Shown: in pieces, positions 43,263-58,362 of the stretch | Layout of the letters: each line of letters begins with the position of its first letter | Position numbering within the stretch: the first letter of the stretch is position 1 | Origin: Sphingopyxis sp. H073 | GTDB taxonomy: Bacteria > Pseudomonadota > Alphaproteobacteria > Sphingomonadales > Sphingomonadaceae | Reading direction: 5' to 3' | Length of the DNA stretch: 64,000 bases | NCBI RefSeq assembly: GCF_001468395.1 | Contig: NZ_LNSG01000003.1 | Coordinates: 124,001-188,000, forward strand | Notes under the pieces: model-generated | Seen by the model: the letters and a program-made list of their open reading frames with translations, nothing else | The model's database searches: none | Told to the model about the DNA's origin: nothing | Made by a program: the position numbers and the translations under genes

Positions 43263-43517
43263 TTGGAAACTGTCTACGATTGGATCACGGTTGCCATATT
43301 CGTCGGCCTGGCGGTACTCTTTCTCCAGCGCTCCTCCGAAGAGGAGCCGCGCGACAAAATCTATCATTACGCCCCGCCGGCCATCGGATGCGCGATCGCC
43401 AACTATCTGGGCAATGAGGGATATATGGTCGGGTCGGTCGTGCTGATCGTCGGCATCCTCGCCTATATCCACTACATCCTCAAACCCTTCGCGCCGTCCG
43501 ACAGCAACGCGAACTAA
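43263..43517 (+). CDS. XrtV sorting-system accessory protein
   Basis: An 84-aa membrane protein with two helices (WITVAIFVGLAVLFLQRS and YMVGSVVLIVGILAYIHYIL) and a conserved centre (EEEPRDKIYHYAPPAIGCAIANY). It matches the small accessory protein found beside exosortase V in sphingomonads. TTG start with GGGGA seven bases ahead. It is convergent with XrtV, overlapping by 4 bases, and divergent from the EpsD gene. Its function within sorting is undefined. Confidence 0.8.
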   Translation: METVYDWITVAIFVGLAVLFLQRSSEEEPRDKIYHYAPPAIGCAIANYLGNEGYMVGSVVLIVGILAYIHYILKPFAPSDSNAN

Positions 43518-44422
43518 TCGCCGGCGGGTTTCCCGGCCGCGAAGCGCCAGACCCGCTGCAGCAGCTTGTCGAGCACATAGATCGTCACCAGCGAGATCGC
43601 GAAGGTCGTGAGCCCCGCGAAATTGTGCAGGAACCCTTGCGCCGCGGCCTCCCCCCAATAATAGGTGATGAGGATGAGCAGCAACACGCGCATCAGGTTC
43701 GAAAAGACCGCGACCGGGATCGCCGCCGCGACCAGCACCGCCATGTAGCGCCAGTTGGCCCGGTGGCTCATATAGACGTAGAAGAGCGTCAGGGCCGACA
43801 GCGTGATGAGCGAATTCAACCCCGCACAGGCCGCCGCGACCAGCAACTGATATTGCCCGATCTGGATCGTGACGCCCGCACTGGCAATCGGATAGCCGAG
43901 GAAATACAGCAGCGAGACCGCGCTCTCGCTGATCCATATCTTCAGCGGATTGGTCAGCGCGGCAACGAGGCTGTCGGGAAGCGGCACCGCGAACAACAGG
44001 TACAGCAGCGGAAACCACAGCCGCTGCAACGCCGCGGCGCCGACAAATGCATAGAGCAAGGCCACGACGAGCGCATAGAGCGCATAGACCTCCAACTCGA
44101 TGACCGCCGCGATACGGAACAGCACGAGCGAGAGCGCGGTCACGAATATGGCGCCGAATGCCCTCCACGCGGCGGGTTTGTGCTGCACCGGACGCGTTTC
44201 CGGCAGCATCCTGACAAACAGCCATATCCCCGATGCCAGAACCAGCGGGCCGTGCGAGCCCTGCTCGGTCGACCAGCTTTGCGTGGCGATGAACCGCCAT
44301 GTCGGAAACGACACCAGGGCCAGTCCCAGAAGGGCCGGCCAGTAACGCCCCGCCCATGCGAGCGCGGATTGTTTTACCACAGGGTTACCCGAAGCGTGCA
44401 ATGTCGACTTTCGCCTTTGCAT
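43514..44422 (-). CDS. xrtV: Exosortase V
   Basis: Integral membrane transpeptidase-like enzyme that cleaves the PEP-CTERM signal. Catalytic Cys199 (AAACAGLNSL), Arg245 (SNLMRVLLLI) and His266 (FLHNFAG) are all in place. About eight hydrophobic helices are visible. Length 302 aa from the ATG at MQRRKSTL, which has GAGGGCC ten bases before it; a GTG at 44380 is possible. Neighbouring EpsD, accessory protein, EpsI and a PEP-CTERM protein make the XrtV identity credible. Confidence 0.92.
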   Translation of the reverse strand: MQRRKSTLHASGNPVVKQSALAWAGRYWPALLGLALVSFPTWRFIATQSWSTEQGSHGPLVLASGIWLFVRMLPETRPVQHKPAAWRAFGAIFVTALSLVLFRIAAVIELEVYALYALVVALLYAFVGAAALQRLWFPLLYLLFAVPLPDSLVAALTNPLKIWISESAVSLLYFLGYPIASAGVTIQIGQYQLLVAAACAGLNSLITLSALTLFYVYMSHRANWRYMAVLVAAAIPVAVFSNLMRVLLLILITYYWGEAAAQGFLHNFAGLTTFAISLVTIYVLDKLLQRVWRFAAGKPAGD

Positions 44423-44551
44423 CGGGCAAGCAGGCCCTCCGCCACGATGGCGGTCACCGATCTCTCCCTGATGCACGCGACTAGCAAAACATCCGATCCT
44501 TTCGCAAGCCGGATGATGATGGGCATGCGGGGCGAGACGCCGATTCAGCGC

Positions 44552-44571
44552 GAACCGCACCGAAGCGGTTC
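44552..44571. promoter_or_regulatory. Inverted repeat AACCGC-N6-GCGGTT in XrtV/flippase gap
   Basis: GAACCGC-ACCGAA-GCGGTTC is a perfect 7-bp inverted repeat in the 265-bp divergent gap. The same core AACCGC-N6-GCGGT appears ahead of the Wza-type gene at 61526-61543. It may be a regulator site. Confidence 0.45.
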
Positions 44572-44687
44572 AGAATGGGGCGAAAGCTGTGCGATTTGCC
44601 TTCGCGTAAACGGAGCTTTTTGCTCGACAAGATGCGCGCGAATGCTACCGCGTCGCGGGTGACGACATTTCATGCAGTCAAACCGGA

Positions 44688-46082
44688 TTGGGCCAGCCGA
44701 TTGTGGACCTAAAGCACCAGCTGACTTCGCTGAAGTCGATCTTCCTTGGTCAAGGCGACACCACCTCACTCCGCGGCCGGGCGATGAATTCGGGCGCGTG
44801 GATCGGTGCCGGATTTGCGGTGCAGAAAGCTCTCCAGTTCGGGTCCAACCTGATCCTGACGCGCCTGCTGTTTCCCGAAGCCTTTGGCCTGATGGCGCTG
44901 GCGTCGGTCTTCATGGTCGGGCTCGCGATGTTCTCGGACGTGGGAATTTATCCGGCGGTTATCAGGGACCCGCGGGGCGACGACCCCGATTTTCTGAACA
45001 CGGCATGGACGGTGCAGGCTGTTCGAGGCCTTGGCTTGTGCGCTGTGGGAGCAGCGATCGCTTACCCCATATCGCTGATTTACGAGCAGCCCATTCTATT
45101 TCCGCTGCTTGCCCTGCTCAGCACCACTGCAGCCATATCGGGATTCCAGTCCATTTCCCTTGCCACGGCCGAAAGACGGCTGGATTTTCGCAGGGTCACG
45201 GTCATTCAGGTCATATCCCAGATTGTTTCCATCACCCTGCTGATTACTTTATCATATTTATACAGATCGGTCTGGTCGCTGGCTTTCTCGGGCGTCATCA
45301 GCACGCTTGCCTCAGTTGTCCTGGGCCATCTGCTGCTTCCGAAGCACCGACATCGGTTCATGCTGCACTCCGCATCGGCAAAATCGCTTTTCCATTTCGG
45401 GCGGTGGATATTGCTGTCGACCCTCGCCACCTATTTGGGCGGAGAAGGACTGAAGGCCATTCAGGGAGGCCTGATTTCCCCTGCGGAATTTGGCGTCCTT
45501 TCTATAGCCTATACGATCGCGGCCATTCCGAACGAACTTGCGACGAAACTCGCCGCATCGATTGGACTGCCCGCCATTGCCGAAACCTATCGCGCCGCGC
45601 CCGATCGCACGTCCGCGGTGCTGCACGCACTGCGGATCCGGACACTTGCCGTTTCGCTGACACTTTTTGCTGGCGCAATCGTGGTCGCGCATCCCGCGAT
45701 CCGCCTGCTCTATGATCCAAGATACCATGCAGCGGCAGACTATCTCGTGGCGCTGTGCGCAGGCAACGCGATTGCAGCGGTCGCCTCTGGCTACAATAGT
45801 GCAATTCTGGCGATCGGAAGGGCGTCAAGCTACTTCCTGTTGATCGCCTCGCTGGCGATAATCCGCATCGTGGCGGTCCTACTGGGCTTCCATATCGACG
45901 GAATCATGGGAATGCTATACGGGATGGCTTGCGCAAATCTTGTATATATCGCGATCACATGGATCGTCGCATTTCGATTCAAGATCATCGATTTAAAAAT
46001 GGACATCATATCGATAATATTGGTTTTGTCATTTTTGCTCGTATTCAGTTCGGCATATCATTTTATGGTTCATATCTTATAG
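44688..46082 (+). CDS. Wzx-type polysaccharide flippase
   Basis: Multi-helix flippase of the polysaccharide transporter (MOP) superfamily, about 464 aa and 12 helices. Family features are AWIGAGFAVQKALQFGSNLI-LTRLLFPEAFGLMAL and the long run of helices after. It would move undecaprenyl-linked repeat units across the inner membrane. The start is uncertain: TTG at 44688, GTG at 44703 or ATG at 44784. The 3' end and the following gap (45920-46170) are clearly richer in AT than neighbours. It stands alone, divergent from XrtV. Confidence 0.85.
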   Translation: MGQPIVDLKHQLTSLKSIFLGQGDTTSLRGRAMNSGAWIGAGFAVQKALQFGSNLILTRLLFPEAFGLMALASVFMVGLAMFSDVGIYPAVIRDPRGDDPDFLNTAWTVQAVRGLGLCAVGAAIAYPISLIYEQPILFPLLALLSTTAAISGFQSISLATAERRLDFRRVTVIQVISQIVSITLLITLSYLYRSVWSLAFSGVISTLASVVLGHLLLPKHRHRFMLHSASAKSLFHFGRWILLSTLATYLGGEGLKAIQGGLISPAEFGVLSIAYTIAAIPNELATKLAASIGLPAIAETYRAAPDRTSAVLHALRIRTLAVSLTLFAGAIVVAHPAIRLLYDPRYHAAADYLVALCAGNAIAAVASGYNSAILAIGRASSYFLLIASLAIIRIVAVLLGFHIDGIMGMLYGMACANLVYIAITWIVAFRFKIIDLKMDIISIILVLSFLLVFSSAYHFMVHIL

Positions 46083-46183
46083 AAAAAGTTGGACGTTTTA
46101 CCTTAAAGAATACGCTGCATTGAAGGCAAATCTGTGCCAATAATAATACCCCCTCATCTGGAACAGCATGCCGGAATCGCGCA

Positions 46184-47218
46184 TTAGTCCAATATGGTGG
46201 CCAAACGATGGCGCCAGTCATGCCGGGTGCGAACATGTTCCACATTGCGTTCGCGGATGGTCGCTAGCTTCTGCGGTTCGGCGCACAAGGCGTGGAGCAT
46301 GGCCAACGCCTCTTCTGGGGCCTCCGGTAGTTCGATGGTCGCCTCCGGCCAGTCGAGCAATTCGTCGGCTTCCTCGGTGGAGGGGCGGGAGCCAGCGACT
46401 ATGCAGCCTGCCGCGAGCGATTCGAACCAGCGCTGGCCGACGATGGACATCGGCACCCGCAGCGGACTGGTGATATGCGGGTCATAAGCGAGCGCGATCA
46501 GGGACGATTGCGCCAACTTCCAGAAATGCATGCGGTGTAGCCGCATATCATCGATGGCACCGATAGACAGATGATCGGTGTGGTGGAAGATGTAAGGGCT
46601 TTCCGGGGTATTCATCGCTTCGGCGACCGTACGGGTGATACCTGGCAGCTGCCGTCCGTAAGCGAGCACGGCAATCGGACGATCACTGTTAAGACCATTC
46701 ACCAGCGTCGTATCTGTCGCCAGCGGCACGTGCCGCGCAATGGCGCGATGCTCCGGTCGGAGGCTCTCATAAACAGGGCGGAATGGCAGGCACAGCCGGT
46801 CGACGCTATCCTCCAGGCTGAACGCCGGGCGCAGGCGGCTTGCGATGGCTCGCGCCGGACCGGGCAGCCGTTCGATGAACTGCTGACCGCGCGAATAGAG
46901 TATGTGCGGCGTATCCCAGCAATCGAACAGGTAAACCACGACGCGATTGCCCGCTTCACGGAGAGCGCGCAATTGAGTCTCCAGAGGCGGCAATTGATAG
47001 AAAGCCAGCAGGACACAGACGATCGTCGCGTTCCTTGCTTGGGCGGGGCTTTCCGGCAGGAGACACAGCTCGGCGTCATGCTCCCGCAGCAATATATTCT
47101 CCAACTCCGCCATGCAGCACATGGCCGGAGACCGATCGAGATTCCGCATCGACAGAACGTAAATCTTCCCGCCGGTACCGGATGTATAAACAGGAGCTCT
47201 ACTCACTGCCTTCACCAT
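46184..47218 (-). CDS. Glycosyltransferase family 1-like protein
   Basis: A 344-aa predicted glycosyltransferase. The C-terminal part (LRVPMSIVGQRWFESLAAGC followed by IVAGSRPSTEEADELLDWPE) resembles the GT1-like C-terminal domain of DUF3880/YkvP-type transferases. The N-terminal domain has a Rossmann pattern (NATIVCVLLAFYQLPPLETQ, VVVYLFDCWDTPHIL). The acceptor and donor are unknown. The ATG at MVKAVSRAP lacks a strong ribosome site, and other starts (up to 47338) are possible. It is the last gene of the five-gene minus-strand series after EpsI. Confidence 0.72.
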   Translation of the reverse strand: MVKAVSRAPVYTSGTGGKIYVLSMRNLDRSPAMCCMAELENILLREHDAELCLLPESPAQARNATIVCVLLAFYQLPPLETQLRALREAGNRVVVYLFDCWDTPHILYSRGQQFIERLPGPARAIASRLRPAFSLEDSVDRLCLPFRPVYESLRPEHRAIARHVPLATDTTLVNGLNSDRPIAVLAYGRQLPGITRTVAEAMNTPESPYIFHHTDHLSIGAIDDMRLHRMHFWKLAQSSLIALAYDPHITSPLRVPMSIVGQRWFESLAAGCIVAGSRPSTEEADELLDWPEATIELPEAPEEALAMLHALCAEPQKLATIRERNVEHVRTRHDWRHRLATILD

Positions 47219-47454
47219 ATCAGGATCGGCGTTTATAGGGTGCGGCAGGCCGCGCCGCGCCTGACGTCGCGAAAAGTGGAACAGATGACACTTTCCGGAC
47301 GAACGGACGCCAAGGCAGCTTGACTGGGCCTGAGCCAAATGCGGAATGGTACGGCGATGGCATCCCTTGCGTCCTTTTCATCCCCGGTCGCCAAATCGGG
47401 CAACGCCGTTTAAGTTCCAGGCGATCTTCACGGTCGAGGGCTGGTTCGCCTGTG

Positions 47455-48417
47455 TCAAATTCGCAAAACTACTCTCGCAAGCTGCGCCCCCCATGATCGG
47501 TCGCGATCATAGAGCGCCTCGCGAACGACTGCCAGTTGATCCGACATTGCCGCAACACGCCCTTCGTTCACCATCAAGTCGCGCAACTCCGCTTCCATCG
47601 CGTCCTGACTGTCCGCCTCGAATATCGCGCATCCGTCACCCAAAGCAGCTATAGCGGGAACGATCGAACTCATGAGCGAGGGGACGCCGTGAGCAGCCGC
47701 CTCGAAGCCCACCACGGCAAGCCCCTCGTTGAAAGCCGTTCGCGTCGGACAGACCAGTAAATCCGCGGCATCGATTGCCCGATGCACCGCTGTCCCGTCC
47801 AGCTTGCCCACGAAGGAAACGCGCGGGTCATCGAGCTTGGCGATCAGCGCTTCGAGTTCGGCGGTTGCGCTCCCTGCACCCGCAAACACCAAAGTGAGAT
47901 CCGGAAAGTCCGACTTCAACGCAGCAAACGCGTCCAACAGCATAAAGACGCCTTTGTCGTGCTCGATCCTGCCAAGATACAAAAGGTTACGAACTCGGCT
48001 GACGCGTTTCACAGCATGCCGATGCGCCATCTGAGGAATCTGTGCCAATCCCTGTACCCGCCCCAAAGTCACTTGCGCAATCTGCCTCGCGCATTCGGCC
48101 GATGTGCAAATCGCATCGTCGATCGACCGGGCGCGCCATGCAGTTTGTGCTTTTCGATAGACTCCTTTTGCACCGCCCAAGCGTTGCCCCATAGGCCAGA
48201 ATGTATTGTGCGCCGTCAGCAACAAGCGCTGGCTGCGCCGCGCGAGCCTCGGCCAGAACGCCGACGGAAAGTCGGTTGCCGCAAGGATCAGATGGGGCGC
48301 AAATGCATCGATTGCAGAACACACCCGGTTTCCATAGTCATTCTGCGCCGCAAAATATTCCTTGCGGCTATTCCAGCTACCTCGCGCGATCCGATGAAAA
48401 GAGTGGGACCGGTCCAT
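47455..48417 (-). CDS. Glycosyltransferase family 4, N-terminally short
   Basis: GT-B enzyme with a full nucleotide-sugar binding half: NLLYLGRIEHDKGVFMLLDA, LTLVFAGAGSATAELEALIA, and the EX7E region FNEGLAVVGFEAAAHGVPSL. The product is 320 aa, about 50-70 residues less than usual. The first strand of the N-terminal Rossmann fold is not visible, since it starts MDRSHSFHRIARGSW. The ATG has AAGGA 4 bases ahead, and the frame is closed only 9 codons upstream by the ligase stop. It may be a natural short form or a trimmed gene. Confidence 0.8.
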   Translation of the reverse strand: MDRSHSFHRIARGSWNSRKEYFAAQNDYGNRVCSAIDAFAPHLILAATDFPSAFWPRLARRSQRLLLTAHNTFWPMGQRLGGAKGVYRKAQTAWRARSIDDAICTSAECARQIAQVTLGRVQGLAQIPQMAHRHAVKRVSRVRNLLYLGRIEHDKGVFMLLDAFAALKSDFPDLTLVFAGAGSATAELEALIAKLDDPRVSFVGKLDGTAVHRAIDAADLLVCPTRTAFNEGLAVVGFEAAAHGVPSLMSSIVPAIAALGDGCAIFEADSQDAMEAELRDLMVNEGRVAAMSDQLAVVREALYDRDRSWGAQLARVVLRI

Positions 48418-48441
48418 CTGGTCCTTCGGAACGGATATCTT

Positions 48442-49791
48442 TTACCGAGTACGAGCCGGGCGTCCGGGCGAGCTCGCAGTCGCGAACACGGCGCCGGCGA
48501 TCAACCACGTCAGTGGCACGATCGATGAGTTGGGAACGCTGTCCAGCAGATTGATGGCGAGCAACGCGCAGAGGGCGGCCGATGGAACCGAAATGGCCTC
48601 GAGCGCCTTGCGCCGCCACAAGAGGCTGACGGCTCCGATCGACAGCAGGCCGAACATCGACAAATACCCCGCCCAGCCCCACGTGCCGAACGCAATGATC
48701 CAGCTGCCGTCGGTGACGCTGTTGTCCCTCCCCGTTTCGGGGTCGTAAATGCGATTCCGGCCCCAGCTTCCCCAGCCGAACATCGGCTTTTGCGCGACTT
48801 TCTGAAGCAGCTCATCCTCGTTTATCAGCCGCACTCCGAGCGAATCGCCGCGATCGGTGCTGAAAGCGTTGGTCATTTCGGATATCGTCGCCGTGGGGAT
48901 CAGTCCGGCGGCGCGCACCGCGGGGTAGAGCAGCACCAAGCCGCATAGCGCCGCGCTCAGCAGGGCAAGCCGCCGGGCGCGCAGGAACGCGATCGCCGGG
49001 ACCGTCACCGCGGCGAGCACGAACGCCCCCAGCGATTTGCACAGCACCAGAATCAGCGCCAGATAGGCTGCGAACAGTCCCGACCGGGTACGGCGCGTTC
49101 CCGTGGCATCCTTCCACCGCGCGGCGGCCGCCGCCAGCGCCATGGCACAGAAGATCGCGACTAGCAGACCGTGGCCCAGGAACACCACGGGGCGAAAGCC
49201 GCCTCCGCGCACCTGTTGCCCGAAGCTGTGCGGAAAAAAGCCGTAGATCAGCCGGTGCAACTGCGGACTGAGCCGGATTTCGATCAGCATCAATACCGAA
49301 TAGGCCAGCGCCGCGAGCACCAGCGCAAAGAGGAACTGGCGGCGGCGCTCGTCATTGTTCAACAAGCCATAGCCAGCCACAAACGGGATAAGCGTGATGA
49401 CGTTCAAAGCCGCCTGCGACGCAGCGTCGTACAATGTCATCGGCGGAATGAAGCGGTCGCCGTAGAGGAAGGATTCGGGATTGAAGACCGATGTCGCGAA
49501 GGGCGAGAAGACGAACAGCACGGCCAGGCCGACGATCGCGGGATTCTTGAAGGCGCCGAGCCATCGTTCGCGCGCGAACAGCGCGCAGCCGATCAGGATC
49601 GAGAGGTTGGAAATGCTGGTCTTGTCGAGCGGCGGCACACCCGAAAACTCGAACGAGGTCTTGACGGGGAGCAGCAGATAAGCGCCGAGAACCGACCACA
49701 TGAGCGCCCGGTGTGCGGGGAGCGTCGCAAACAGCAGGATCGCCACGCACGGCCAGACGCCGAGGACCAAATAGGCAAACAGATTCGGAAT
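48442..49791 (-). CDS. O-antigen ligase/Wzy-like polymerase
   Basis: Polytopic protein with about 11 helices and the large periplasmic loop of the O-antigen ligase (Wzy_C) family; the loop has the conserved VAQKPMFGWGSWGRNRIYD region. It would polymerise or ligate the polysaccharide. The start is unusual: the family N-terminus PNLFAYLVLGVWPCVAILLF begins with ATT at 49791, six bases after GGGGGG, while the first standard start (TTG 49770) would remove PNLFAY. Both upstream and downstream genes share this frame and are separated only by stops. Length 449 aa with ATT. Confidence 0.83.
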   Translation of the reverse strand: MPNLFAYLVLGVWPCVAILLFATLPAHRALMWSVLGAYLLLPVKTSFEFSGVPPLDKTSISNLSILIGCALFARERWLGAFKNPAIVGLAVLFVFSPFATSVFNPESFLYGDRFIPPMTLYDAASQAALNVITLIPFVAGYGLLNNDERRRQFLFALVLAALAYSVLMLIEIRLSPQLHRLIYGFFPHSFGQQVRGGGFRPVVFLGHGLLVAIFCAMALAAAAARWKDATGTRRTRSGLFAAYLALILVLCKSLGAFVLAAVTVPAIAFLRARRLALLSAALCGLVLLYPAVRAAGLIPTATISEMTNAFSTDRGDSLGVRLINEDELLQKVAQKPMFGWGSWGRNRIYDPETGRDNSVTDGSWIIAFGTWGWAGYLSMFGLLSIGAVSLLWRRKALEAISVPSAALCALLAINLLDSVPNSSIVPLTWLIAGAVFATASSPGRPARTR

Positions 49792-49809
49792 CGAACGCCC
49801 CCCGCGCGG

Positions 49810-51546
49810 TTATTCAGCGGTCGGCATATGCGGCCGCGGGACGTTGCAGTCCAGCAGCGCGCGCATTTTGGGGCTGTTTTCATTCGGCGTGTCATAGCTC
49901 GCCTTGGCGCCCCAGCTTCCCCACCGGGTCCCTTGCCGCCCCACACTGTTGAAATGGGCGAGCAGGCTGCAACCAAGGTCGCGATGCACCCGCATGAGTT
50001 CGACATAGAGATCATACATGCGCGGATGCGACTGCGCCGGCGCCAGCGCCGGACCATAGGGCAACTCCGCCTGCCCCTTGGGCTGGATATGCTGTCCTCC
50101 CTCATAAGCGATGTAGGCAAGTCCATTGCGCTTCGCGAAATCGATCGTCCGGGACAGGCTGTCGCCGGCGCGCAGTTCCGCCAGCGTCGCCGCGACATCG
50201 TCGATCACCATATCGGCTGTCAGCGCCGCGCCAAGGCTCGCCCATTTCTCATAGGCCGCGTCGCGAGGCCCGACATAGGCAGCGGGCGACACCGTATCGA
50301 CCCCGCCGTTTTTGAGACACCACCGGATCGTGCGTTGCGACGCGTCGAACCAGGCCGCCTGGACCGCGCCGACCCGCACCAGCCGCTTCGCATCGGCTCC
50401 CGCCCATTCGCGCTCCCATATGGCGAACGTCCGCCTGAACAGCGCCCCGATCCGCTCGGGGTGATCCTTCCCCTCGGTCTTCGCGGCATCCTTCCAGGGA
50501 TTCCCGCCCTTCGCTTCGACCAAGGCGCCCGCCAGCGGCGAATTCAGCATCCAGCCGGCCTGCAGAAAGCCCCAGTTCCAGACCTCGTTCGAATATTCGA
50601 GATAGACTTTCAGCTTGGGGTCAAGCGTCTGATGCACCAGCTTCGCAAACTGTGCGATATAGTCGTCGGTCGCACGGTGCGGGATGCAAAACCACGGATC
50701 GATCTGAAGCGTGTTGCATAGCTGGACCATCAATTCGATCGAGACGCCGCCCGAAAACTTCATCTGGAACGGTGTCGGCGCAGGACCGAAGCGGGCGTCG
50801 GGATCGCCCCGCGTCGCCACCATCGTATAGAATGTCGGCCGTTTCCGGTTGCGCCAATGTTCTTCGATCGAGTTGTTCGTGCCTGCCCAATCCATGAACC
50901 GCAGGCAATGGAACGGACGGCAGAAATCGAGGAATTCGGGCAGGAACGGATCGCGCGTCAGGTCCGCATTCTCGTCGGCTTCCGCAACCAGCCGGATATT
51001 TCGGATGTGATTGCCGCGCTTGGACCGCCTGATGATGATCCCTTCGTAATTCTTCCTGTCATTCCGCATGCTCAGTTTCACGCGGCCCGGTCTGCTCGAT
51101 ATGATCCGGGTAGAGGCCGTCGCGTCGATCTCGCCTTCCCCGTCATAAAGCAGAATATAGGTTCCTGGCGGTCGCCAGTTAGGGACAAGGGTCGCGACCG
51201 TTTGAGGTTCCGAAAGCCCGGGGCTGCGGACCGGCACCTCGAGCGGGTAACCGTCCTCGTCATACTGGAACGCTGCCGGGACATTGGTGTTGTCCGGCCC
51301 GGCCTTGCTGAGATTCTTCGTGTACCAAGGCCTTGCCCCCAGAAACAGGTTCCGGAAGGGAAAGCCCGGCTCCCAGTCCGCGATTCCGGCCAGATTCATG
51401 CCGATGGGCAATTTGGGAAAGCTGTCGCCGCGCGGGATGGGAATCGGTTCCTCACGCGTCGCGGCCCACAGTCCGCCGAGACCGGCCGTAAAGACGCCCG
51501 CGCCGGCCGCGGAAGCCAGCATCAACGACCGACGATCAATCTTCAT
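49810..51546 (-). CDS. Tat-exported glycoside-hydrolase-like protein
   Basis: A 578-aa protein with a Tat-like signal (DRRSLMLASAAGAGVFTAG). The second half resembles a clan-A TIM barrel: YLEYSNEVWNW supplies a candidate acid/base Glu321, and AYEGGQH a candidate nucleophile Glu482. The first part (about 45-200) is beta-rich (TYILLYDGEGEIDATASTRI) and may bind carbohydrate. It lies in the middle of the EpsI-ligase operon, so it may trim or release the polysaccharide in the periplasm. Family is unassigned; the glycosidase role is an inference from motifs. Confidence 0.7.
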   Translation of the reverse strand: MKIDRRSLMLASAAGAGVFTAGLGGLWAATREEPIPIPRGDSFPKLPIGMNLAGIADWEPGFPFRNLFLGARPWYTKNLSKAGPDNTNVPAAFQYDEDGYPLEVPVRSPGLSEPQTVATLVPNWRPPGTYILLYDGEGEIDATASTRIISSRPGRVKLSMRNDRKNYEGIIIRRSKRGNHIRNIRLVAEADENADLTRDPFLPEFLDFCRPFHCLRFMDWAGTNNSIEEHWRNRKRPTFYTMVATRGDPDARFGPAPTPFQMKFSGGVSIELMVQLCNTLQIDPWFCIPHRATDDYIAQFAKLVHQTLDPKLKVYLEYSNEVWNWGFLQAGWMLNSPLAGALVEAKGGNPWKDAAKTEGKDHPERIGALFRRTFAIWEREWAGADAKRLVRVGAVQAAWFDASQRTIRWCLKNGGVDTVSPAAYVGPRDAAYEKWASLGAALTADMVIDDVAATLAELRAGDSLSRTIDFAKRNGLAYIAYEGGQHIQPKGQAELPYGPALAPAQSHPRMYDLYVELMRVHRDLGCSLLAHFNSVGRQGTRWGSWGAKASYDTPNENSPKMRALLDCNVPRPHMPTAE

Positions 51547-51587
51547 CGGCCGGCAGCCCGTCGGTTATCGAGCCGCCGACGCGGCGT

Positions 51588-52295
51588 TCAAAACAAGACA
51601 TTGTTCCGGAACTCGCTGGAACAGGCTCGGGCAAAAGCCTGCAGGAATTCCTCGAGCGCGTCGGGCGAATAGCCGGATGCCCCCTCTATCGTCGAGACGC
51701 GGAAAAGCAGCCCGTCGGGAGAAACACCCCGAACATTCGCCAGCGCCATTGAGATTCTCTGTTCGGCCCACCCAACGGGAAAATCCCTACCTACACGGAC
51801 CCAGTACAGAATCTCCTCCTTCGGGCCGCCACGATCGGCGATCAGCTTTCGCGCGGCGATGCGGCGACCGTCGAAATCGAGCGACACAGCCTTGGAAAAA
51901 ACGATCGGGAAACCCGCCGCCGGATAGCAAACCTCGGGCCGATGGACCTGAACGTCATTCTGCTGGATATTGTTGTACGCTAGTAGCACCATCATTGTGG
52001 GCAACCCGTCGCCTTGGTAGATACGGGTTTCGAGATTCTGATAGAGATTGTCGGAAAACGGGTCGGGGGCAGCGGTTACCAGTTCGCTGCTCGTCCGCGA
52101 CCGCCACCTGCCCGCAGCCCCAGGGATCATCTTGCGGAACCGCTCTTTGGGGATGGGCGCGGCCAAGGCTCTCGGCATGTTGAGGGAGGAGATGGCGGCG
52201 GCCGCCGCCAGCCCTAGGCCAATCAGGGCGCCTCGCCGGTCGATCATCCTGCTATCGGCACGTTCGCCCGGCGAAAAAATGTTGCGTCTGGTCAT
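51588..52295 (-). CDS. epsI: EpsI-type exosortase-associated protein
   Basis: A 235-aa EpsI-family (DUF3485) protein that in other systems is fused or linked to exosortases. A membrane-export leader (GALIGLGLAAAAAISSLNMP) precedes the EpsI domain with its key segment NNIQQNDVQVHRPEVCYPAA, where the conserved His and Cys lie. ATG follows AAAGGG. It heads a minus-strand series EpsI, GH-like, ligase, GT4, GT1 and is divergent from a GT4 gene. Role in sorting or polymer processing is unproven. Confidence 0.87.
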   Translation of the reverse strand: MTRRNIFSPGERADSRMIDRRGALIGLGLAAAAAISSLNMPRALAAPIPKERFRKMIPGAAGRWRSRTSSELVTAAPDPFSDNLYQNLETRIYQGDGLPTMMVLLAYNNIQQNDVQVHRPEVCYPAAGFPIVFSKAVSLDFDGRRIAARKLIADRGGPKEEILYWVRVGRDFPVGWAEQRISMALANVRGVSPDGLLFRVSTIEGASGYSPDALEEFLQAFARACSSEFRNNVLF

Positions 52296-52389
52296 ATTAG
52301 CCCTTTGGATCGGCCGCTCATGCTTAGTCGCCGTCGGACAAACTCGCCAACGAAAAAGTTCCCCACTATAAAAGGGCGCGGCTTGCAAA

Positions 52390-52403
52390 GCTGTTCGAAC
52401 AGC
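52390..52403. promoter_or_regulatory. Palindrome GCTGTTCGAACAGC
   Basis: A perfect 14-bp palindrome in the EpsI/GT4 divergent gap, next to an AT-rich TATAAA. This could be a regulator site for either operon. Confidence 0.35.
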
Positions 52404-52441
52404 CTAGGCGGGAAACAACGCAAGCGTTCGGGGGGCCAAGC

Positions 52442-53659
52442 TTGAGAATTGCGTATCTGGTAAATCGCTATCCGGCGACAAGTCACAGCTTCATTCGCCG
52501 CGAGATCGCAGCAGTCGAGGCCGCAGGCGCAGAGGTGTTTCGCTTCTCGGTCCGCCCCGCGGACCTCGCCGCCTTGCCCGACCCGCGCGACCAGGCGGAA
52601 GTCATGCGAACCGAGACGCTTCTAACCCCAGGCGGCCTGCGACTCCTGCTGCGGTTGGCGGGGCGATTCCTCCGATATCCGGGCCGCGGCATCGTGGCGA
52701 CGCGGACAGCCTTTGCGCGCGGGGAATGGAAGGTCGCGCCGATTATAAGGCGCGTCGCCTATTTGGCCGAAGCCGCCGAACTGGCCGCGCGGATGCGGGC
52801 GTTGAAGGTCGATCACCTGCACGCCCATTTCGGGACAAATCCCGCAATAGTGGCCCGGATCGCCAGCAAATGGAGTAGCATCCCCTACAGTTTCACGGTC
52901 CACGGGCCCGACGAATTCGACCTCGCCGCCCCGCTCGACCTCACCGGGAAGATCGCCGACGCCCGATTTTGCGTGGCAATTAGCAGCTTCGGGCGCAGCC
53001 AGTTGATGCGCTGGAGCGCGTTCGACGACTGGAGCAAGATTGAGGTGGTCCGGTGCGGCGTAGACGAAATGTTCCTCAATGACGGCGCCCCGTCGCCTGT
53101 GCCTGCCACGCCGCGCCTGTGCGCCGTCGCGCGATTGAGCGCGCAAAAGGGCATACCGCTGCTGATCGAGGCCGCGAAGCGCCTCAGGGACGAAGGCAGG
53201 CATTTCGAACTTGTCCTGATCGGCGATGGCGAAATGCGGGACGAGATCGAACGGATCGTCGATCGCCACAGCCTCAAAGCGATAGTTCGGATCACTGGAT
53301 GGGTGAGCGCCGACGAGGTGGTCGCGCATCTGTCCGAGGCGCGCGCTATGGTCTTGCCCAGCTTTGCCGAAGGGCTTCCGGTCGTGATCATGGAGGCGCT
53401 GGCACTCGAACGCCCTGTCGTTGCCACCGCAATTGCCGGCACCCCCGAACTCGTCGACCATAGGTGCGGCTGGCTTATTCCCGCGGGATCCGTCGACGCG
53501 CTGACCGATGCGATGCGCGCGGCGCTAGACGCCTCGCCTGCCGAGCTCGCCGCGCTGGGCAGTGTCGGAAGGGAAAGAGTGCGCGACCGGCACGATGCGA
53601 GCCGGAATGGCCGCGAACTCTATCGCCTGTTCCAGCTCCATCACGACATCGGCCGATGA
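52442..53659 (+). CDS. Glycosyltransferase family 4 (exopolysaccharide)
   Basis: GT-B glycosyltransferase of 405 aa. N-terminal acceptor half: RIAYLVNRYPATSHSFIRRE and HLHAHFGTNPAIVARIA, a pattern of the WcaL/AmsK colanic-acid type enzymes. Donor half: CAVARLSAQKGIPLLIEAAK, LIGDGEMRDEIERIV, and EX7E in FAEGLPVVIMEALALERPVV. The TTG start follows GGGGGG by six bases. It heads a plus-strand series of four glycosyltransferases. Sugar specificity unknown. Confidence 0.88.
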   Translation: MRIAYLVNRYPATSHSFIRREIAAVEAAGAEVFRFSVRPADLAALPDPRDQAEVMRTETLLTPGGLRLLLRLAGRFLRYPGRGIVATRTAFARGEWKVAPIIRRVAYLAEAAELAARMRALKVDHLHAHFGTNPAIVARIASKWSSIPYSFTVHGPDEFDLAAPLDLTGKIADARFCVAISSFGRSQLMRWSAFDDWSKIEVVRCGVDEMFLNDGAPSPVPATPRLCAVARLSAQKGIPLLIEAAKRLRDEGRHFELVLIGDGEMRDEIERIVDRHSLKAIVRITGWVSADEVVAHLSEARAMVLPSFAEGLPVVIMEALALERPVVATAIAGTPELVDHRCGWLIPAGSVDALTDAMRAALDASPAELAALGSVGRERVRDRHDASRNGRELYRLFQLHHDIGR

Positions 53660-53660
53660 C

Positions 53661-54863
53661 ATGATCGCGCTGCTGGCCTGGCTCCTCGCCCTCCCCCCTC
53701 TGATCGCTCTTTCGATTTTCGTTCTTGAAACGCTGCTCGGCCTCGGGCGGCTTCGCGAAGCACCGCCACCTCCGGGGCAGCCGAAAACTGTCATAGTGAT
53801 GCCCGCGCACAATGAAGCCACGACGATCGGGTCGACTCTCGACCGGCTGCAACCAGCCCTCAGCCAAAATATTCGCCTGCTAGTCGTCGCTGACAATTGC
53901 ACCGACGACACGGCGAAAATCATCCAGTCGCGGGGTCATGCGGTGGTCGAGCGCCATGACCCGGAGAACCGGGGCAAGGGCTTTGCGCTGGCGTTCGGAC
54001 GCGACCATCTGCTCGCTTCTCGCGACGAGCGCACGCTCGAATGCGTCGTCGTCCTCGACGCCGATTGCGAGACCGACGCGGCATCGCTGTCGACGCTCAC
54101 GCGGACCTGTGTCGCGCGGCGCGTGACTGTCCAGAGCCGCAATATCCTCCGGGAAGCGAGCGATGCCCCCGCAAAGGTCCAGATGTCCAGTTTCGCGTTC
54201 TGGATCAAAAGCGTCGTCCGCCAGCGCGGCGGGATGCGTTTGGGTGGCGCGGCCCTGGTGACCGGGACCGGAACGGCCTATCCTTGGGCCCTGTTCAAGA
54301 CGCTTCCGCTGGCAACCGCGAACATCGTCGAGGACTTGGCGATTGGTATCCACCTGACGCGGAACCGGCAGGCGCCAATCTATCTGGACAGTGCCTCGGT
54401 CCGGAGCGCGGCCGCCGATGAGGCGGCGACGCTGAGCCAGCGCACGCGCTGGGAGCACGGCTTCCTCCAAACTGCCCGGACATTCGCTTTCAGCGCGATC
54501 CACGACGGCATCCTGTCGCGGAATCAAAAGCTGCTCCACCTCGGCCTTCACCTTCTCGTTCCACCCCTGACGTTGCTCCTGCTCGTATCGCTCACAGCGC
54601 TCGCAGCAACCGGCGTTCTGGCGTGGCTCGGCGGAGATTGGTCTGCCTTCGTCGCGCTGGCTGCCGCGATCCTGCTGGCAGCCGCCGCTATCCTGCTCAA
54701 TTGGGCGGTCGAGGGGCGGCGTTGGCTCAGCGCCCGCGCGATGCTCCAGCTGCCGCTCTACATGGTATGGAAGCTGCCGGTCTATCTCGGTTTCGTGCGC
54801 GGCAAGAGCGTCGGCTGGGTCAGGACCGAACGAACCGACGCGGGAACGGAACAGCGGCCTTGA
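53661..54863 (+). CDS. Glycosyltransferase family 2, membrane type
   Basis: A 400-aa GT-A transferase with an N-terminal anchor (LLAWLLALPPLIALSIFVLE), Rossmann start TVIVMPAHNEATTIGSTLDR, DXD-type VVLDADCE, the acidic base in NIVEDLAIG and a QRTRW motif of processive enzymes, then two or three C-terminal helices (LLHLGLHLLVPPLTLLLLVS). It resembles cellulose/hyaluronan-synthase-like enzymes that act at the membrane. It overlaps closely with the GT4 gene (1 base gap) and with the next GT2 gene (4-base overlap). Confidence 0.88.
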   Translation: MIALLAWLLALPPLIALSIFVLETLLGLGRLREAPPPPGQPKTVIVMPAHNEATTIGSTLDRLQPALSQNIRLLVVADNCTDDTAKIIQSRGHAVVERHDPENRGKGFALAFGRDHLLASRDERTLECVVVLDADCETDAASLSTLTRTCVARRVTVQSRNILREASDAPAKVQMSSFAFWIKSVVRQRGGMRLGGAALVTGTGTAYPWALFKTLPLATANIVEDLAIGIHLTRNRQAPIYLDSASVRSAAADEAATLSQRTRWEHGFLQTARTFAFSAIHDGILSRNQKLLHLGLHLLVPPLTLLLLVSLTALAATGVLAWLGGDWSAFVALAAAILLAAAAILLNWAVEGRRWLSARAMLQLPLYMVWKLPVYLGFVRGKSVGWVRTERTDAGTEQRP

Positions 54864-55882
54864 CCAAAATCCTGACCATCATCGTCAATTACCGCACCCC
54901 CGAACTGGCCGAAAAATGCCTTGCAGCGCTCGCCAGCGAACGATCGGGTGACGCCGGTCTCTCGGCCATCTTGGTCGATGGCAATTCTGGCGACGGGTCG
55001 GCGGAGCGGCTCGCCGGCTTTCTGGCGCTTACCGGGTTCGACGGATGGACCGACCTGCTTCCGCTCGATTTCAACGGCGGGTTCGGTTGGGCGAACAATC
55101 AGGCGATCCTCAGCCGCGGCACCGACCTTCCCGACTATATCTACCTCCTCAATCCCGACGCCGAGGTCACGCCTGGCGCCGTCGCGTCGCTCGCCACGGC
55201 GCTCGATACGCATCCCCGGGTCGCGGCCGTGGGTAGTCAGCTTATCGAACCCGACGGCGCCCCCGCCGCCTCGGCCTTTCGCTTCCCCTCCCCGGGCCGC
55301 GAGTTCGTGCGCGGATCGCAAACCTTTGCTCTGCATCGGCTGCTGGGCATTCCGCCGATCGTTCTGGCGCCGGGCGAGGCAGGTCCGGTCGGCTGGGTAA
55401 CCGGCGCCAGCGTAATGCTGCGCCGCGATGCGCTCGCCGCAACCGGCCTGTTCGACGACGGCTTCTTTCTCTATTTCGAGGAAGTCGAACTGATGCGACG
55501 CCTGACCCGCGGCGGCTGGCAGATATGGTGCGAACCACAAAGCCGAGTCCGCCATATTGGCGGCGCATCGACCGGCGTCGACGGGAAACAGGTACGAAAG
55601 CCGAAACCGGCCTATTGGTTCGCATCGCGCAACCGATACTTCACGCGCAGCGGTGGAGCCGCCTACGCCTGTCTCGCGAACCTTGCCTGGCTGTCCGGCT
55701 TCGCGCTGATCGGGGGCCCGCGCATGTTGCTGTCACGAACGGCACGTGCCAACGCAACTGCGGGGGAGACGCGGGGCATCATCCAGGAGGGCATCTGGCC
55801 CGCGGCACGGCATCGCAGGGCCTCGATCGCCAGAATTGGCTCGGCCTTTGGTCAATTGCCCCGCTGGGCGGAGGATAGTTGA
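54860..55882 (+). CDS. Glycosyltransferase family 2 (rhamnosyltransferase-like)
   Basis: A 340-aa GT-A enzyme: ILTIIVNYRTPELAEKCLAA, DGNSGDGSAERL, LLPLDFNGGFGWANNQAILS and the DXD region LLNPDAEVTPGAVASLATAL, then GWVTGASVMLRRDALAATGL and EEVELMRRLTRGGW. This pattern is that of rhamnosyl- and related transferases (RfbF/WbbL group). The start is TTG overlapping the upstream stop (TTGA), so translation is coupled. Donor unknown. Confidence 0.88.
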   Translation: MTKILTIIVNYRTPELAEKCLAALASERSGDAGLSAILVDGNSGDGSAERLAGFLALTGFDGWTDLLPLDFNGGFGWANNQAILSRGTDLPDYIYLLNPDAEVTPGAVASLATALDTHPRVAAVGSQLIEPDGAPAASAFRFPSPGREFVRGSQTFALHRLLGIPPIVLAPGEAGPVGWVTGASVMLRRDALAATGLFDDGFFLYFEEVELMRRLTRGGWQIWCEPQSRVRHIGGASTGVDGKQVRKPKPAYWFASRNRYFTRSGGAAYACLANLAWLSGFALIGGPRMLLSRTARANATAGETRGIIQEGIWPAARHRRASIARIGSAFGQLPRWAEDS

Positions 55883-56001
55883 CCGATCCGGAATATCGCC
55901 CGCGGACGTATCGAAACGCAGAAAGTCCAAAGCAATCATCGCTAATCGAGTGAGCGCATGACAAGAAGATTCCTGAGCCCCTCTCTGTGGATACTACCTG
56001 C

Positions 56002-57000
56002 ATGACGTCGCGACACAAACTCGGAATCGTGGTGATCGGACGCAACGAGGGCGAACGCCTCAAGGCCTGTCTGGCGAAGCTGCCTAACGGGCCCACCACC
56101 GTATATGTCGATTCCGGATCGCAAGACGGCAGCGTGGAGTTCGCGCGGGGACGGGGAATCGACGCGTTTTCGCTGACGTCAGACAAGCCGTTCACGGCTG
56201 CACGCGGACGCAACGCCGGTATCTGTCACCTGTTGGAACGGCACCCCGATCTTGAGTTCATCCAGACCGTCGACGGCGACTGCCTGATCGATGATCACTG
56301 GCTTGAAAAGGGCGTCGCCGCGCTGGAGGCGCATCCCACGGCAGGGGTCGTCTTCGGAAGCCTCCGCGAAGTGAACCCCGAAGGCAGCCTGTACAATTAC
56401 CTGTGCGACAGATCGTGGAACGCACCCGTCGGCGAGGCCGAAAGCTGCGGCGGCATCGCGATGCACCGGGTTGCCGCGATCCGGCCGGCGGGCGGCTTTG
56501 ACGAAACGCTGATCGCCGGAGAAGAATCCGACCTTTGCCTGAAGATCAGGAAGGCCGGCTGGTCTGTGCTGAGCGTCGACGCAGAAATGGGCCTTCACGA
56601 TGCCGCGATATTCGAATTCTGGCAATGGCGACGCCGGATGCGGAGGACGGGCTATGCCTACGCCGAACATGTCGCGCGAAACGGCAAAGAAAGCCTGCCG
56701 AGCTGGAAGAGAGAGGTGCTCAGATTTTCTTTCTGGGGCTTGGCCCTCCCCCTGTTCATCGTGTTCGCCGCCTTCTCCCTGTTCTTCGCCAACAGGTCGT
56801 TGTTGTGGTTGGCGGCACCCCTTTCGCTGTACCTCCTTCAATTCTTCAGGATATGGAGGCGCGAGAGGGGGAAGAGCCGATATGCGATCCGGATCGCGCT
56901 GCTGACGGTGTACGAGAAATTTGCCGAGTTGGCGGGCGCTTTTCAATTCTTGACGAAACCGTTCGCCGGCAAGCGATCGAAGATCATCGAATATAAGTAG
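56002..57000 (+). CDS. Glycosyltransferase family 2
   Basis: A 332-aa GT-A transferase: LGIVVIGRNEGERLKACLAK, VYVDSGSQDGSVEFARGRG, DXD in IQTVDGDCLIDDHW, and acidic ED in GEESDLCLKIRKAGW, followed by C-terminal helices (SFWGLALPLFIVFAAFSLFF, LLWLAAPLSLYLLQF) and a juxtamembrane basic tail. The ATG is used; an in-frame GTG lies 15 bases upstream and neither has a strong ribosome site. A 119-base gap separates it from the previous GT2. It is convergent with the acyltransferase gene. Confidence 0.85.
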   Translation: MTSRHKLGIVVIGRNEGERLKACLAKLPNGPTTVYVDSGSQDGSVEFARGRGIDAFSLTSDKPFTAARGRNAGICHLLERHPDLEFIQTVDGDCLIDDHWLEKGVAALEAHPTAGVVFGSLREVNPEGSLYNYLCDRSWNAPVGEAESCGGIAMHRVAAIRPAGGFDETLIAGEESDLCLKIRKAGWSVLSVDAEMGLHDAAIFEFWQWRRRMRRTGYAYAEHVARNGKESLPSWKREVLRFSFWGLALPLFIVFAAFSLFFANRSLLWLAAPLSLYLLQFFRIWRRERGKSRYAIRIALLTVYEKFAELAGAFQFLTKPFAGKRSKIIEYK

Positions 57001-57039
57001 AGCCGCGCCGCCGCGATCCGTCGCCGCGCGTAAGCTTGC

Positions 57040-57597
57040 TCAGTTTTCGGGCACGAGCCGACCCGGATTTCCGACCACGACGCCATAGGCGGGGACATCC
57101 TTCAGCACCACCGCATTCGCCCCGACGCGCGCATGGTCGCCGATCGTGACCGGCCCTATGATCTTCGCGCCCGCGCCGATGTCGACATGGCCGCCGATCG
57201 TGGGAATGCCCCGGTCGTTCGCCCCGATCGTCACTTGCTGAAAGATCAGGCAATTGCACCCGATCTCGGCGCCGGGGTGGAGGACGATGCCGTTGGGATG
57301 CGGGATCAACAGACCACCACCGATCCGGCTGTTGATCGGAATGTCCGCGCCGGTCACGGCCGACCAGAAGCGATGCCGCAGGACCGCCAGCTTGCGCGCG
57401 AAGGGCGCCAGGATACCCCGTGCGTCCTGATAGCGCCGGATGCTGGCCAGCAGCGCCCGGGGCGGATCCCATGCGCCCGCTGCCTTGCGCTCGCGCGACC
57501 AGTCAGGGTCGGACGCCGATATTGCCGGCTGGCCTTCGGGATCGAGGATCGCCATGGGATATCGCTGTTCCTTCGAAATGCTGTCCGTCGGCGCCAT
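57040..57597 (-). CDS. Hexapeptide-repeat acyltransferase (serine acetyltransferase-like)
   Basis: A 185-aa left-handed beta-helix transferase. Hexapeptide turns run from about residue 90 (IPINSRIGGGLLIPHPNGIV, GCNCLIFQQVTIGANDRGIP, IGGHVDIGAGAKIIGPVTIG), with the catalytic His in HPNGIVLHP. It resembles CysE-like acetyltransferases found in EPS clusters, where they add acetyl groups to sugars. The ATG at 57597 is used; ATG 57555 is another option with a more distant AGGA. Last gene of the TPR-initiating transferase-TagA-acyltransferase series. Confidence 0.82.
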   Translation of the reverse strand: MAPTDSISKEQRYPMAILDPEGQPAISASDPDWSRERKAAGAWDPPRALLASIRRYQDARGILAPFARKLAVLRHRFWSAVTGADIPINSRIGGGLLIPHPNGIVLHPGAEIGCNCLIFQQVTIGANDRGIPTIGGHVDIGAGAKIIGPVTIGDHARVGANAVVLKDVPAYGVVVGNPGRLVPEN

Positions 57598-57603
57598 CAG
57601 GGT

Positions 57604-58362
57604 CTAATGCCTGCGCCCGCGCCACGCCAAGGCGAAAATACGCGGGCCGGTGACCAGGTAACGCTTCCACAGGCGCCTCGGTTCGCTGAGCAGGCGGAAC
57701 GCCCATTCAAGATGGAGGTGCTGCACCCAGATGGGGGCTCGCCGTTTGCGGTCGACGAGGAATTCGATCGAGGCCCCGATGCACAGTCCGATACCGCGGC
57801 CACGCGGGTCGGCCTTGCATTTCGCAGCGACAATCTCGCTTTGCGGCGAGCCGATCGCGAAAAAGGTGAAATCGGCGCGTTCGCGCGCTACGAAATCGAC
57901 GATCGCATCGATGGCCCGTTCGTTGCGGAGCACGCCCATCGGCGGAAGATGCTGGACGATTTCAAGGTCCGCGAAGCGCTCGCCAAGTTCGGCCATCATC
58001 GCCTCGTCACCGCCGACGAGAGCGATCTTTCGACCGGCGAGCCATCGGTTGCGAAACAGATAGGCCGTAAGGTCGCTGCCCGTCACGACATCGAGCCGGA
58101 TCCCGCGGAAGCGCGCCAGAAGCTGGAGAATACGGCTATCGCACAGGCGCATCGCCGCGTTGTCATAAGCCCCCTCCAACCGTCCGGTCGTCGCGTTTCG
58201 GTGCCTGGGATTGAGCAGCAGGACGTGGTCGACGTTGGGCGTGACGACATAGGAAAAGCAATCGCGGCCCGCGAGCTCGACAAGCTCGCGCGCAACCTGT
58301 TCATAAGACGATCCGGTAAATTCGATGCCGAGAAACCGAACACCGTCTGCGTCAGTAGGCAT
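57604..58362 (-). CDS. WecB/TagA/CpsF-family glycosyltransferase
   Basis: GT26-type enzyme of 252 aa that adds a sugar (ManNAcA, ManNAc or a related unit in known members) to the lipid-linked acceptor. Marks are SYVVTPNVDHVLLLNPRHRN, RLDVVTGSDLTAYL, and IGSPQSEIVAAKCKADPRGR with GIGLCIGASIEFLVDRKRRA near the C-terminus. Its start overlaps the initiating transferase by 11 bases; GGGACAAGA precedes the ATG. It likely adds the second sugar. Confidence 0.9.
   Translation of the reverse strand: MPTDADGVRFLGIEFTGSSYEQVARELVELAGRDCFSYVVTPNVDHVLLLNPRHRNATTGRLEGAYDNAAMRLCDSRILQLLARFRGIRLDVVTGSDLTAYLFRNRWLAGRKIALVGGDEAMMAELGERFADLEIVQHLPPMGVLRNERAIDAIVDFVARERADFTFFAIGSPQSEIVAAKCKADPRGRGIGLCIGASIEFLVDRKRRAPIWVQHLHLEWAFRLLSEPRRLWKRYLVTGPRIFALAWRGRRH

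Follow-up and report, generated by a model that had tools for sequence, protein, structure and literature searches.

The protein of 578 amino acids (aa) encoded at positions 49810-51546 of the window, which is the whole stretch of 64,000 nucleotides analysed from Sphingopyxis sp. H073, very probably belongs to a clan GH-A family that is unclassified in Pfam, NCBIfam, PHROGs and PDB sequences. We propose that it is a periplasmic, retaining endo-glycosidase that would process the exopolysaccharide (EPS) of its own locus, and we give this reading a probability of about 0.65.

The gene and its exopolysaccharide locus

The initial annotation had placed a 578-aa open reading frame at 49810-51546, and this was borne out on the minus strand, where a single frame encodes 578 aa and a stop; the plus strand in the same register is interrupted by an in-frame stop. 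The GC content by codon position was of the coding type (0.62/0.49/0.76), and relatives were found at 97%, 72%, 71% and 69% identity. The dN/dS of the gene against three genus relatives was 0.077 (97% identity), 0.136 and 0.221 (72% and 71%), indicating that these close orthologues are under purifying selection; synonymous sites were saturated in the other three loci tried. Coding-type GC, close relatives and low dN/dS together indicate that the frame is more than a chance one. The genes around it that define the locus are the following.

41440-42165, minus strand: PEP-CTERM-like protein (VPEPATW, hydrophobic stretch and Arg-rich end, read from the sequence)
43514-44560, minus strand: exosortase V, XrtV (NF035943, 371.5 bits, cut-off 313)
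44688-46082, plus strand: Wzx flippase (PF13440, E 4.1e-49)
47455-48417, minus strand: GT4 glycosyltransferase (PF00534, E 2.1e-20)
48442-49770, minus strand: Wzy_C or O-antigen-ligase-like membrane protein (PF04932, E 1.1e-06, 29 bits, below the Pfam cut-off of 31.7)
51588-52388, minus strand: EpsI, exosortase-associated and V-type-like (TIGR02914, 95 bits, cut-off 42.8)
58352-60265, minus strand: WcaJ-type initiating sugar transferase (TIGR03023, 424.8 bits, over the cut-off; start codon perhaps further in)
61565-62206, plus strand: Wza-type export protein (PF02563, E 7.9e-20)

Together with several other glycosyltransferase genes in the wider locus, these genes suggest an exopolysaccharide locus of the Wzx/Wzy type that includes exosortase V. 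The gene had been described as lying between EpsI and a ligase, and EpsI is indeed found 41 nt upstream and the Wzy_C-like gene 39 nt downstream. The best model for EpsI was EpsI_type_V (NF045608, 214 bits, below the cut-off of 228), and its start region also bears a twin-Arg segment. Since the setting is a Wzx/Wzy locus, the putative ligase is more likely to be a polymerase. The GT4 gene starts 24 nt past it, on the strand shared by EpsI and the glycosidase gene. The C-terminal signature of the protein at 41440-42165, which we take to be a PEP-CTERM-type motif, suggests a possible substrate of XrtV; a Pfam search with this protein gave no match, and a Ser/Gly/Thr-rich low-complexity stretch lies ahead of the tail.

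Predicted fold, catalytic residues and export

We modelled the protein with AlphaFold using 81 sequences. The resulting model was a (beta/alpha)8 barrel (pLDDT 89.8, pTM 0.90) with barrel strands at residues 48-51, 214-217, 283-288, 314-318, 389-395, 418-421, 477-480 and 526-531. Conservation was read from two alignments and from the copies on viral contigs. The narrow alignment held 20 rows from whole-protein searches, leaving out duplicate segments and the two weakest matches (G460 and G475), and the wide alignment held 81 sequences, window copy included. The main features of the protein are listed below.

51442-51546, minus strand: Tat-type leader, residues 1-35, twin Arg followed by a hydrophobic stretch, read by eye
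51394-51405, minus strand: barrel strand 1, residues 48-51, from DSSP of the model
50911-51390, minus strand: predicted beta-sandwich insert between barrel strands 1 and 2, residues 53-212 (pLDDT 94.9 when modelled alone)
50899-50901, minus strand: Arg216 in barrel strand 2, kept in 81/81 sequences of the wide alignment and 78/78 covered viral copies
50575-50595, minus strand: YSNEVWN, residues 318-324, after strand 4 (314-318), with Glu321 as predicted acid/base
50089-50106, minus strand: YEGGQH, residues 481-486, after strand 7 (477-480), with Glu482 as predicted nucleophile

Glu321 and Glu482, whose positions within YSNEVWN and YEGGQH had been given correctly by the initial annotation, were each kept in all 20 rows of the narrow alignment. 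Glu321 was also kept in 81/81 sequences of the wide alignment and 78/78 covered viral copies, and Glu482 in 80/80 and 76/76 covered sequences, respectively. The wide alignment and the viral loci were gathered by short patterns containing the catalytic motifs, one motif being enough per locus, so the invariance of the two Glu in these sets is partly built in, and the narrow alignment is free of this bias. Arg216, Asn320 and Tyr424 were invariant in the narrow alignment (20/20), in all covered sequences of the wide one and in all covered viral copies, and these three residues and both Glu were kept even at 24-30% identity to the window protein.

In clan GH-A enzymes, which act by a double-displacement, retaining mechanism, the acid/base Glu directly follows an Asn where strand 4 ends, the nucleophile Glu ends strand 7, and the two carboxylates lie about 5.5 Angstrom apart. 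The model showed the barrel, an Asn-Glu pair after strand 4 and a Glu after strand 7, and the five invariant residues with this placement amount to the clan GH-A signature. Comparison with PDB structures by VIA-align gave 957 of 1000 chains with Z >= 8. The top rows were GH51 (2y2w; Z 22.2, 310 residues, rmsd 3.7), a bacterial heparanase that we take to be of the GH79 type (5bwi; Z 21.7, 288 residues, rmsd 3.1) and GH39 (2bfg; Z 20.5, 273 residues, rmsd 3.5), and most of the 50 listed rows aligned from model residue 40-47 onwards. Foldseek returned 18 matches at E <= 0.001 (best E 3e-5), GH51, GH26 and GH5 enzymes among them. GH51, GH79 and GH39 enzymes carry their Glu after strands 4 and 7, as in the window model, but they share 8-15% identity with the window protein in the listed rows, and it has no Pfam match.

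A further difference lies in the accessory domain. GH51 and GH39 enzymes have a C-terminal beta-sandwich, whereas the window model has none and instead carries a sandwich between barrel strands 1 and 2; a sandwich at this position is not known to us from other clan GH-A families. The initial annotation had described a beta-rich N-terminal part and a TIM-barrel-like half. Both elements are in the model, which places the beta part as an insertion behind the first barrel strand and not as an N-terminal domain. The insert, modelled from 73 of the 81 sequences, resembled PDB structures only weakly (Foldseek E 0.042 and Z 6.1 at best). The matches were of several kinds, carbohydrate-binding modules included, and did not establish its identity with a known module of that type; nor does a fold family drop out as a candidate by being missing from these match lists. 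Perhaps it helps to hold the polymer.

The barrel and the placement of both Glu are thus predicted with high confidence, and the fold and catalytic class are very probably those of a clan GH-A glycosidase. This agrees with the glycosidase-like character first proposed for the protein, for which a structure prediction had been suggested as a check, with a structure lacking a barrel as the contrary outcome; the model contains the barrel. A barrel that lost activity while its fold persisted, serving as a scaffold or in polysaccharide binding, is so improbable that we give it little weight: no relative with measured activity was found, but both Glu, Arg216, Asn320 and Tyr424 are kept in every covered sequence, down to the most distant ones.

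The protein is probably exported by the Tat pathway and would reside in the periplasm or on the outer surface, as the initial annotation had also suggested. The twin Arg and hydrophobic stretch at the N-terminus, presumably a Tat motif, lie in a segment of low model confidence (pLDDT <50 over residues 1-32). The twin Arg was found in 7/7 copies at 54.8-100% identity, window copy counted, and was absent from a relative at 52% (L036). A loose pattern applied to the first 110 residues of each frame picked out a twin-Arg motif in 7 of 80 wider relatives, some of them by chance.

A widespread family outside the searched libraries

Searches with the 578-aa protein came back empty from Pfam (E 10) and NCBIfam (E 0.1). 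Among 20 members searched against both libraries at E <= 1, no glycosidase model was matched and only isolated weak matches appeared (best E 0.0015); these single-member matches and a PHROG match at E 0.037 were taken as chance. A profile of 20 rows found nothing among PDB sequences at E 10, and the single-sequence PDB search returned one ribosomal protein (E 2.1), which was not usable. The GH39 model (PF01229) matched neither the protein, nor the 20 members, nor anything in the whole genome of the strain. The GH5 model (PF00150) likewise left the protein and the 20 members unmatched, its single match in the genome being on another contig. For GH51 and GH79, the search was of Pfam and NCBIfam as a whole, with whatever models of these families they may contain, and gave no match. 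The comparison of profile HMMs with glycoside hydrolase families that had been suggested as a check was run by hhalign with two GH39 proteins and returned a probability of 0.2%; as it was blank, the tie to known glycoside hydrolases comes solely from the predicted structure and the catalytic signature.

These results uphold the earlier statement that no known glycoside hydrolase family could be assigned, and the libraries searched likewise contained no characterised non-glycosidase family to which the protein belongs, an outcome that had been named as evidence against the proposal. That the family is a new glycoside hydrolase family is a limited claim, judged against Pfam, NCBIfam, PHROGs and PDB sequences, with CAZy outside the comparison. 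Some recent clan GH-A families may be without a Pfam model, and the protein could belong to a defined CAZy family that is absent from Pfam, NCBIfam and the PDB. We hold this to be improbable, if by no means negligible; the blank searches of the 20 members and of the PDB profile speak against it, as does the motif SNEVWN, which had no occurrence in the open-licence papers searched. It bears on novelty only and fits the EPS-processing reading. Among the open-licence papers searched, none was recognised as treating the glycosidase family of this protein.

A scan of species genomes found at least 555 relatives among 594 stretches. The 80 that were kept, mostly from metagenome-assembled genomes (MAGs), came from Sphingomonadales, Cyanobacteria, Bacteroidota, Planctomycetota, Verrucomicrobiota, Lentisphaerae, Armatimonadetes, Spirochaetes and others, and the nearest among the matches listed were two sphingomonads (60% and 55%), followed by a MAG labelled Verrucomicrobiota (52%). 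Members were found in 6 of 80 genus genomes, own included, two of which (G644 and G672) hold only distant copies (30%), in 7 of 196 genomes of the order, by protein and by profile search alike, and in 14 of 398 genomes of the phylum sample. A member was also present in 25 plasmid records, 23 of them alphaproteobacterial, where the annotations read hypothetical, calcium-binding, cadherin-like or ABC-transporter substrate-binding protein.

Some members are multi-domain or occur in several copies. On a Paracoccus marcusii plasmid (L033:3465-10373), the family domain lies inside a 2302-aa protein annotated as a family 16 glycosylhydrolase, with polysaccharide genes nearby. Sphingomonas sp. PsM26 has four family matches in its genome, including a 1135-aa protein (L035:3381-6788) and a close orthologue of the window protein (L035:9944-11722), about 3 kb apart beside EPS genes. 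A Planctomycetota MAG (G712, the genome of L086) has five, three of them tandem copies (C168:46410-51639) with two in one 1232-aa frame.

Viral contigs in IMG/VR gave 127 relatives among 163 candidate stretches, of which 79 loci were kept; some of these contigs could contain host DNA. At L193:4971-6464 a free 497-aa copy, whose start resembles a signal sequence, is flanked by phage-type genes for SbcC, SbcD, thymidylate synthase and DNA polymerase. It is placed like an auxiliary gene, and look-alike loci such as L175 and L192 have equal frame length. At L220:3828-10490, on a 285-kb contig (IMGVR_UViG_3300020084_000003), the domain forms part of a collagen-like protein of 2220 aa that matches PHROG tail fibres (best E 4e-34), a position expected of an enzyme that cuts surface polysaccharide. 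By eye, this tail fibre has further hydrolase-like segments, and the same contig carries a second family copy (L170). Of ten long viral frames scanned, two had tail-fibre segments (L220 and L171) and eight had none. Three queries against isolated phages gave no match. A FastTree tree was built, without a support test, from 98 cellular copies and 50 on viral contigs (148 in all), and parsimony required 12 changes between cellular and viral on it. With secretion-domain and binding-domain forms in other phyla and these copies on viral contigs, the family is broader than an enzyme of EPS operons.

Association with EPS genes and proposed role

Orthologues of the window gene lie in the same EPS gene run in other species. 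In each of the four other species where a close orthologue was examined (G639, G671, G673 and G108), a Wzy-like gene adjoins the glycosidase gene and XrtV is present in the region; EpsI is directly adjacent in the first three, and in G108 a glycosyltransferase-like gene stands in between. In G639 the glycosidase is 97% identical, compared with 66% for the flippase of the same locus and 69-91% for the glycosyltransferases found. Window positions 43514-60265 are collinear with this locus (L250) and mostly 86-97% identical, the lower values being those of Wzx (66%), GT4 (69%) and GT2 (77%); a counterpart of the window gene at 46184-47338 was not detected there. This pattern may reflect side-chain genes being exchanged while the core of the locus stayed conserved.

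We then compared the neighbourhoods of family members with control regions from the same genomes. In Pseudomonadota, an EPS-type neighbour was found in 16/17 regions and in 0/13 controls (Fisher P 1.2e-7), and 15/17 regions had a glycosyl- or sugar transferase. The 17 regions (12.9-19.9 kb) came from 19 other matching genomes, with G460 and G475 left out; of 17 controls requested, three were nonexistent and one of 982 bases was unused, leaving 13 whose positions were hand-picked, not random. Among 20 other regions drawn from the 80 genome loci (19 from other phyla and one from Hyphomicrobium, L107), EPS-type genes were found in 5/20 against 1/20 controls, whose positions were likewise hand-picked (P 0.18), and leaving out Hyphomicrobium (4 against 1 in 19 regions) the difference was likewise not significant, so that EPS context is unsupported as a family-wide rule. 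With window references, 21 of the 80 genome loci had EPS-type neighbours, and none was detected next to L034 (60% identity) or L036 (52%). As these tests relied on models and references from Pseudomonadota, they can miss distant EPS genes. Of 13 plasmid regions inspected among the 25, nine were annotated: EPS or glycan genes were near in six (L031, L033, L147, L151, L152 and L153), a glycosyltransferase lay about 6 kb off in L032, and L145 and L150 had non-EPS annotation with no EPS or glycan genes near. The association with EPS genes is therefore firm in Pseudomonadota and unproven elsewhere.

A general secreted enzyme that degrades foreign or matrix polysaccharides and sits in the EPS locus by chance is a reading we regard as unlikely. 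The 20 regions mostly from other phyla, where a tie to EPS genes was not shown, would fit it, as would the plasmid and MAG copies without detected EPS genes around them. Ten long family frames were also scanned; a T9SS sorting tail was found in two (L047 over the cut-off, L049 under it), and some of the ten bear such a tail or a PKD, fn3, lectin or RTX domain, which would fit as well. Against it stand the shared gene run in four other species and the form of the window protein itself, which carries no extra domain for sorting or anchoring (Pfam found nothing, and the model stops after the barrel).

The EPS-processing reading, in line with the trimming or release of polymer first suggested for the protein, draws on this shared run with EpsI and the Wzy-like polymerase, on the conserved synteny and on the EPS association in Pseudomonadota. 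In the proposed mechanism, Glu321 (after strand 4) would donate a proton to the leaving group and Glu482 (after strand 7) would act as the nucleophile on the anomeric carbon; the enzyme would most likely cut the EPS of the locus internally during polymerisation and export. Such cutting may set chain length, release the polymer or clear stranded polymer from the periplasm.

Retaining glycosidases can transglycosylate, and the glycosyl-enzyme could instead be resolved onto an acceptor, for example another EPS chain or an exosortase-sorted PEP-CTERM protein, so that the polymer would become attached to the surface. Coupling of EPS to a PEP-CTERM protein would explain the persistent proximity of the glycosidase gene to those of EpsI and the polymerase, and EpsI, XrtV and the PEP-CTERM-like protein do share the locus. 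XrtV was over the cut-off in 16 of 196 genomes of the order, 5/7 with the family and 11/189 without (P 3.6e-5, shared descent ignored). This co-occurrence speaks for the EPS-processing reading and for a transglycosidase alike; against both, XrtV was in the same 20-kb region as the family in only three of the five genomes (G000, G108 and G195) and elsewhere in two. The distant copies in G644, G672 and G172 have a WecG-type transferase within about 1.5 kb, and Wza and an outer-membrane barrel protein are encoded in the region; no XrtV was detected in these three regions and no EpsI in the 20-kb regions of G644 and G672. This counts against a transglycosidase too, and we consider that reading highly doubtful. 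There is an equally slim chance, if not a slimmer one, for the joint claim that such coupling operates in exosortase-V loci and that phages took up the family, in at least one case within a tail fibre, to cut surface polymers.

Known systems offer parallels for the EPS-processing role. PslG of Pseudomonas aeruginosa is likewise a glycosidase encoded in an EPS operon, psl; as a GH39 enzyme it is of a different family from the window protein. According to extracts of PMC9075953, the catalytic Glu residues of PslG (E165 and E276) are required for its biofilm phenotype. In extracts of PMC9894940 and PMC8829089 on P. aeruginosa, PelA activity yields secreted low-molecular-weight Pel, and AlgL, an alpha/alpha toroid lyase, clears periplasmic polymer. 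PelA and AlgL serve as models for the role, while their families, polymers and export systems differ from those of the window locus. The promonan locus of Sphingomonas sp. LM7, a Wzx/Wzy locus, contains the glycosidase genes prmQ and prmN, and extracts of PMC11340318 report that loss of prmQ gives rugose colonies, while loss of prmN (called GH10) leaves colony form and EPS production unaffected. The prmN result counts against an EPS-processing role of the window glycosidase. PrmQ and PrmN differ from the window protein in their annotation, as GH16 and GH10. Like PslG, PelA and PrmQ, the window enzyme is encoded within a biosynthetic locus, and by analogy it is most likely comparable in role to one of these three.

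A widespread glycosidase-like family whose catalytic signature is unbroken, yet which Pfam, NCBIfam, PHROGs and PDB sequences all fail to match, marks a gap in carbohydrate-enzyme annotation. For exosortase biology, a conserved enzyme beside EpsI and a polymerase bears on the link between PEP-CTERM sorting and exopolysaccharide, and the viral copies point to candidate depolymerases for biofilm matrices.
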